From NCBI RefSeq assembly GCF_006539865.1, contig NZ_BJNV01000012.1:1-64000 (forward strand): 64,000 nt of DNA, read 5' to 3'. The stretch comes from Zoogloea ramigera. GTDB taxonomy: Bacteria; Pseudomonadota; Gammaproteobacteria; Burkholderiales; Rhodocyclaceae. The position numbers were made by a program, and so were the translations under genes. The notes under the pieces were generated by a model. That model was given only the letters and a program-made list of their open reading frames with translations. It was not told the origin of the DNA and ran no database searches. Of this stretch, positions 20,850-21,108 are shown piece after piece; the first letter of the stretch is position 1, and each line of letters opens with the position of its first letter.

Positions 20850-21108
20850 AGACGGGTCGGGTCGGAGTGAGAGCGAGTCAGGTCGACGCAGACACGGGTC
20901 AGGTCCAACCCGACTCCAGTCGGGTCCAGGTAGACATGAGTCAGATTCAACCCGACCGGGGTCAGCTCCGGGCGAACTCGAGTCGGGTTCAAGCCGACTC
21001 CGGTCAGGCCCAACCGAAGACGAGTCGGCTCCGACCCGACACGAGTCGGGTTGGAGCGAAGTCGAGTCAGCCCTGACCAGACCCGAGTCAGCACCGACCA
21101 GACCCAGG
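20850..21108. repeat. 21-bp tandem array, 12 in-register units
   Basis: The trinucleotide GTC (mostly GTCGGG or GTCAGG) recurs at 20856, 20877, 20898, 20919, 20940, 20961, 20982, 21003, 21024, 21045, 21066 and 21087: exactly 21 bases each time, with no indels. The best units are palindromic, for example ACCCGACT CC AGTCGGGT near 20909-20926. Since 21 is a multiple of three, the array is open in several frames and gives false 7-residue repeats on both strands. It fills most of the 570 bases between the response regulator and parE, where I see no gene. Function unknown. Confidence 0.85.

Follow-up and report, generated by a model that had tools for sequence, protein, structure and literature searches.

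Arrays of diverged 21-bp units that keep their spacing in intergenic DNA of Zoogloea, possible helically phased protein-binding sites

Introduction

Plasmid iterons and ParR-type centromere repeats are tandem units of about two helical turns to which proteins bind cooperatively along one face of the helix; they usually comprise fewer units than the arrays described here and lie beside a replication or partition gene. The 21-bp arrays of Zoogloea resemble them in unit spacing, the register corresponding to whole helical turns, but are instead scattered between ordinary genes. The array that is the main subject of this work is flanked by a response regulator gene and parE rather than by a replication or partition gene, and no replication or partition domain was found in the seven neighbour proteins scanned at three array loci.

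REP and BIME elements are bound by gyrase and IHF. REPs are intergenic palindromes of 20-40 bp, and they are like the Zoogloea arrays in being clustered intergenic palindromic repeats and candidate sites for chromosome proteins (PMC2817692, PMC3733652, PMC6379681). REPs adjoin some Zoogloea arrays but are not their units, which are 21-bp direct repeats and not REP hairpins in alternating orientation. BrickBuilt, a minisatellite MITE of Porphyromonas gingivalis, has a 23-nt unit of one sequence family and 19 copies in one genome (PMC4596501). Like it, the Zoogloea arrays are made of spacer-free short tandem units, occur in scattered intergenic copies and have a narrow host range, but their unit is of 21 bp and belongs to several families; BrickBuilt has in addition a leader and a tail with inverted ends (PMC4596501), whereas no common leader or tail was found for the Zoogloea arrays apart from the right-hand element of part of family III. 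A non-coding periodicity at multiples of 1/21 (k/21) was also reported for a eukaryote, Plasmodium falciparum, the abstract calling the overtones an artefact of number coding (PMC3287587). A report on coding 25-residue repeats was set aside (PMC2996958). We recognized no description of the Zoogloea arrays in the open-access literature searched.

Results

The window, i.e. the whole stretch of 64,000 nucleotides of Zoogloea ramigera DNA that was analysed, contains two 21-bp arrays (Table 1). In the one upstream of parE, GTC stands in the same register in all 12 units (12/12; first at 20856, last at 21087, period 21) with zero indels, as the initial annotation had read it, and the array edges (20840-21112) possibly hold a degenerate 13th unit. 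Lag-21 identity was 0.597 versus 0.273 in permutations (z = 11.6; 2000 permutations, sd 0.028, highest permutation 0.377), and Tandem Repeats Finder reported period 42 at 20876-21051 (score 107) and period 21 at 21063-21105 (score 72). The initial annotation had also centred the units on a palindrome ACCCGAC-N-GTCGGGT, and this had to be corrected: the form with a one-base spacer, allowing up to one mismatch, was not found anywhere in the window, and the half-sites lie four bases apart (ACCCGAC-N4-GTCGGGT, up to two mismatches) at three places (20908, 20950 and 21034) rather than in every unit. With a spacer of 0-3 or 5-7 bases there were zero matches in 20801-21150.

Table 1. Features of the window, repeat units of the 21-bp arrays and starts of the hairpin-rich element
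Feature	Position	Strand	Remarks
Response regulator gene (Response_reg + Trans_reg_C)	20032..20751	+	Upstream of array; domain matches
REP palindrome GTCGGGTTA..TAACCCGAC	20777..20802	.	Between response regulator gene and array
21-bp array, 12 units, family A	20856..21107	+	Consensus about GTCRGGTCCAACCCGACTCGA; edges degenerate, 20840-21112
TATAGT, probable -10 box of parE	21150..21155	+	TGTATAGTCCG here
Long hairpin element	21190..21312	+	Between parE promoter and parE
parE, topoisomerase IV subunit B, gyrase B type domains	21322..23280	+	Domain and homology matches
Second 21-bp array, about 7 units, family D	39350..39496	.	Unit CTTCTTCACCCGGGTGAATTC; FAA-hydrolase gene (+) and MFS gene (-) on either side
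Unit GTCGGGTTCAAGCCGACTCGG			Arrays of the window, C4 and C20
Unit GTCAGGTCTGAGCGAGGACGA			Array C21
Unit GTCCGACTTGAACTCGTTCAA			Arrays C6, C26, C30 and C37
Unit GTGCAC..CTTC			Array C2
Unit TCTACAAGGCCTTAGATTCCT			Array C4
Hairpin-rich element, G001	L287 1821; L289 1807; L291 1740; L295 1798		Start positions
Hairpin-rich element, G011	L286 1800		Start position

The array ends 42 bases before TATAGT (21150). A sequence GGTATAGTCCG is found upstream of parE in all eight readable named relatives, its counterpart in the window being TGTATAGTCCG. The parE gene gave matches at 90-99% identity in Zoogloea, Zoogloeaceae, Rhodocyclales and a proteobacterial bin. The array was absent from every readable named parE locus in close relatives, eight in all (L043-L048, L050 and L073; L042, which is cut off, and L074, which lacks the start of parE, were left out). 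The gene that precedes parE is the response regulator gene in the window and in genome G008, and another gene at those eight loci, so that synteny breaks at the array. Both the array and its upstream genes are common to the window and G008, the sole relative with a complete copy of this array; the REP at 20777-20802 is missing from that copy. Since the array is missing and the upstream gene differs at all eight loci, its association with parE seems incidental, and a special link to this gene found no support. Absence from this locus in close relatives, together with random variation in copy number and indels inside units elsewhere, had been put forward as a mark of a neutral minisatellite. In this respect the locus gave a mixed answer: the array is missing from the eight loci, but its 12 units are kept in G008.

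A lagged-identity scan of the window and of sampled contigs revealed further 21-bp arrays, with units unlike one another (Table 1). Seven of the 20 stretches fetched had been chosen because earlier searches matched arrays there; the own-genome stretches not picked for arrays came to 502.5 kb, window excluded, and contained non-coding arrays of 21 or 42 bp at L131, L136, L137 (short) and L141, the L131 array being GC-rich and perhaps an uncalled gene. Other periods in this unselected DNA were 84 bp at L136 and 126 bp at L177 (47% within a called gene). Near-perfect non-coding tandem arrays were also observed at L130 (5760-6237, 87 bp) and L180 (3144-3562, 43/86 bp), which are apparently recent, unlike the diverged 21-bp arrays. 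In 200 kb of G001, of the same genus (membership being as assigned by the search tool), four of four non-coding arrays had the 21-bp register, with different units. Zero comparable arrays were found in 226 kb of seven further genomes of the genus, one of which gave little over 1 kb; the repeats there were one of 7/14 bases that also scored at lag 21, one of 22 bp and one of low complexity. Outside the genus, G023 had zero arrays in 99.6 kb, and nine genomes of the order (400 kb) had one array each of 9, 72 and 21 bp, the last being, by eye, coiled-coil coding sequence. Among 80 parE loci (736 kb) there were two 21-bp arrays in L043, a Zoogloeaceae bin, and a weak four-unit one in L072, an Azoarcus bin, the other periods being 8, 15, 16, 108 and 115 bp. 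The array of the window itself had matches in 3 of 40 relatives, own genome included. Array size is similar throughout (11-15 units in 27 of 36 arrays; median 13, range 7-23), and the arrays sit in convergent, co-directional and divergent intergenic regions. By rough gene calls a 3' gene end is the closest one in 12 of 20 cases and a 5' end in eight, and a clear 3'-end preference was rejected. The 21-bp pattern recurs at other loci and in other families, with few indels inside units.

Families were delimited by comparing the column profiles of 16 arrays, in all rotations and on both strands, with column-shuffled profiles. The C arrays were linked to one another, D to F, G1 to G4 (family III) and H1 to H2; family A was linked to B and had a weak link to C, and E, G2 and G3 had weak links only. 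Counted from the listing, family III matched at about 13 places in G001 and five in G011, of which six and four, respectively, were verified as arrays. Of 23 genomes in the genus, five matched the G3 array and seven had the family C motif, whereas not one of 299 other genomes in the order matched the longer patterns of families A and C. Dyad symmetry was significant (p < 0.01) in 10 of 21 arrays, all in families A, C and III, and non-significant in C6 (family C), G1 (III) and families B, D, E, G2, G3 and H, with F at p 0.048; the palindromic character claimed for the units thus holds for these ten and, the other 11 not being significant, is not universal. No 10.5-bp sub-period is common to the arrays, and a general one was rejected. 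What families A, B and C have in common instead is a 5.25-bp purine/pyrimidine rhythm, which is their strongest harmonic but does not rank first in the other families.

Some arrays share sequence beyond their units. A hairpin-rich dispersed element, with 83-95% identity among copies, lies to the right of family III arrays (Table 1); this common right flank follows four of six examined family III arrays in G001 and one of three in G011, the latter array being the ortholog of one of those G001 arrays. In other families the shared flanks were only REPs, one 53-bp match and one 175-bp match. The last joins the right flanks of C20 (L123, right of 735) and C26 (L126, right of 7209) at 69% identity, and perhaps reflects paralogous genes that adjoin these two arrays, which belong to different families.

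Comparison between species showed that the spacing is kept well beyond that of neighbouring DNA. The G008 ortholog of the parE-locus array differs by 29 substitutions and zero gaps over 271 aligned bases, against 34 substitutions and gaps of 1, 1, 1, 6 and 63 in the remainder of that intergenic interval, and the copy in G018, cut by a contig end, differs by 23 substitutions in 166 bases with zero gaps. Ten hand-chosen pairs at seven loci were compared in global alignments, the headline figures using one comparison per locus. The seven orthologous arrays contained 334 substitutions and seven gap calls (8, 8, 9, 12, 13, 21 and 40), and in their flanks there were 46 gaps to 456 substitutions. A Fisher test gave p 6e-6 when each of the six calls of a length other than 21 was scored as a violation. 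Five of the seven calls are pieces of three 21-bp units, MAFFT drawing 13+8 and 12+9 as single 21-bp gaps; the remaining two, of 8 and 40 (L289, L194), are at array edges, and a 52-bp gap that ends one array (G018, C37) is a further edge loss. All ten comparisons, among which lineages are shared, gave 454 substitutions and seven gaps in arrays versus 565 and 56 in flanks. An interval-based count, to which three of nine locus pairs contributed an array once intervals that had no anchors or fell under 60% identity had been removed, gave 124 substitutions and zero gaps in arrays versus 622 and 44 outside. An earlier local BLAST count (293 substitutions and 14 gaps in arrays versus 690 and 95 in other non-coding DNA) split and shifted arrays and was replaced by the global alignments.

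Within single arrays, each fitted to its own cyclic profile at a charge of 7 bits per indel, 32 of 36 were unbroken and there were five register breaks per 2336 mismatches, a ratio biased toward constraint because the arrays came mostly from lag-21 and family searches, were hand-trimmed and paid 7 bits for each indel. The initial annotation had suggested that unit length is kept while sequence diverges and that the spacing is under constraint. The first was borne out at the parE-locus array, and the second agrees with the contrast between the G008 array and the gapped rest of its interval, which recurs at other loci. The letters of the arrays are free to change while their 21-base spacing seldom does, and the spacing looks constrained. 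The indel-to-substitution ratio of the arrays is unlike that of adjoining spacer, and is not that expected of a neutral minisatellite (the 36-array count having its ascertainment bias). Variable sites were also spread unevenly across the columns of the unit, both at the parE locus (permutation p 0.010) and at C30 (0.011). Preset conserved columns at the parE locus, chosen by conservation among the units of that array, showed no significant protection (8/84 versus 21/168 sites; Fisher p 0.54).

Discussion

The best reading of the arrays, which we favour tentatively and at no better than nearly even chances, is that they are helically phased putative protein-binding sites. It is suggested by the combination of unlike sequences in several families, one exact two-turn period, kept spacing, uneven columns and no codon signal. 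The parE-locus array would then be a row of about a dozen in-phase sites for a candidate DNA-binding protein, which in the case of the palindromic families is probably a dimer. With a site at every second helical turn, the bound protein would come to lie on one face of the DNA, and binding on one face could build a cooperative nucleoprotein stretch of about 270 bp; both the binding and its cooperativity we infer. The array would belong to a scattered class in the intergenic DNA of some Zoogloea genomes, with a presumed role in local nucleoid structure or insulation rather than in the control of one gene. Several points count against binding: several sequence families would need several proteins or one relaxed protein, dyad symmetry is non-significant in 11 of 21 arrays, there is no shared 10.5-bp sub-period, the arrays occur in every kind of intergenic region, their distribution is patchy within the genus with none in the 226 kb of seven other genomes, and the preset columns at the parE locus are not protected (p 0.54).

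The main rival, which ranks below phased binding and is still a substantial possibility, is a selfish or neutral minisatellite, in which a lineage-specific mutational process makes tandem 21-bp copies, so that 21 reflects the mode of making and not a function, and the arrays spread by whole-array copying and in-register exchange of units. Over 295 bp of array, C4 and C20 have 92% identity, and their flanks are unrelated, which indicates that whole arrays can be copied, and the one conserved hairpin-rich element after some family III arrays suggests that array and element may spread together. The many places of family III (about 13 in G001 and 5 in G011), the patchiness of the families (seven of 23 genomes of the genus have the C motif, and none of 299 others of the order has the A or C patterns) and the gain and loss of whole units and edges also fit a satellite. 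So does the proximity of REPs: of the eight found in 706 kb of own genome, of which seven stretches had been chosen for arrays, four stand no more than 300 bp from an array (at three places), where 0.23 would be expected. By itself, however, a minisatellite leaves unexplained why old, diverged arrays take few small indels, unlike their flanks, and why the columns are uneven. Both explanations can be partly true.

Transcribed arrays that act as rows of hairpins, as terminators or RNA-protein sponges, are an improbable alternative. In 12 of 15 arrays the folding z of one or both strands fell below -3, but E (-2.7), G2 and H2 miss this value, B and G1 pass on one strand only, and DNA palindromes fold as RNA anyway. 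The arrays moreover lie in convergent, co-directional and divergent regions alike, and a known RNA family was rejected for the parE locus, since nothing in window positions 20000-22000 scored above the Rfam gathering score. Intrinsically curved DNA, in which the phasing would sum small bends, is very improbable and was rejected: bends spaced by 21 bp, or two turns, would be additive, but in a wedge model 0 of 18 arrays exceeded their column-permuted versions at the 5% level (lowest fraction 0.16), and several were straighter than most permuted versions. That the arrays encode heptad repeats, 21 bp being seven codons, is barely credible and was rejected as well: at least one of six frames is open in 24 of 29 arrays and stops are rarer in some frames than in column shuffles, but five of the 29 have zero open frames and ortholog substitutions, instead of concentrating at third positions, give flat codon-phase counts at the parE locus (13:5:11 and 9:5:9, versus 3:5:71 in parE), C30 (12:10:10, 7:5:10, 20:21:17, 19:20:22 and 14:7:10), C26 (9:10:16) and C37 (12:9:3; lowest p 0.07).

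Taken further, phased binding would mean that some Zoogloea species have a genome-wide system of phased arrays, located between genes and of several sequence families but in one format of 21 bp and about 13 units, serving as assembly sites for a nucleoprotein fibre, in which geometry and not sequence is conserved; we regard this extension as rather unlikely, if worth stating. Bacterial spacer DNA is usually viewed as short and idiosyncratic, and scattered arrays that keep length while their sequence drifts would allow one to ask, in a natural setting, whether selection can act on DNA geometry alone. Phased binding would lead to an unknown DNA-organising protein in wastewater-treatment bacteria. 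The neutral reading, too, would be unusual, as it implies that one lineage produces satellites with a single, fixed helical length.

Beside the array, the parE locus carries the long hairpin element of 21190-21312. It was included, together with the array, in the Rfam search of window positions 20000-22000, in which no family exceeded the gathering score. The element occurs at seven places in its own genome, and in nine aligned sequences 24 of its 44 predicted pairs have double compensatory changes. It may represent a structured RNA that has not been described; alternatively, it may be a palindromic repeat that template switching keeps perfect.
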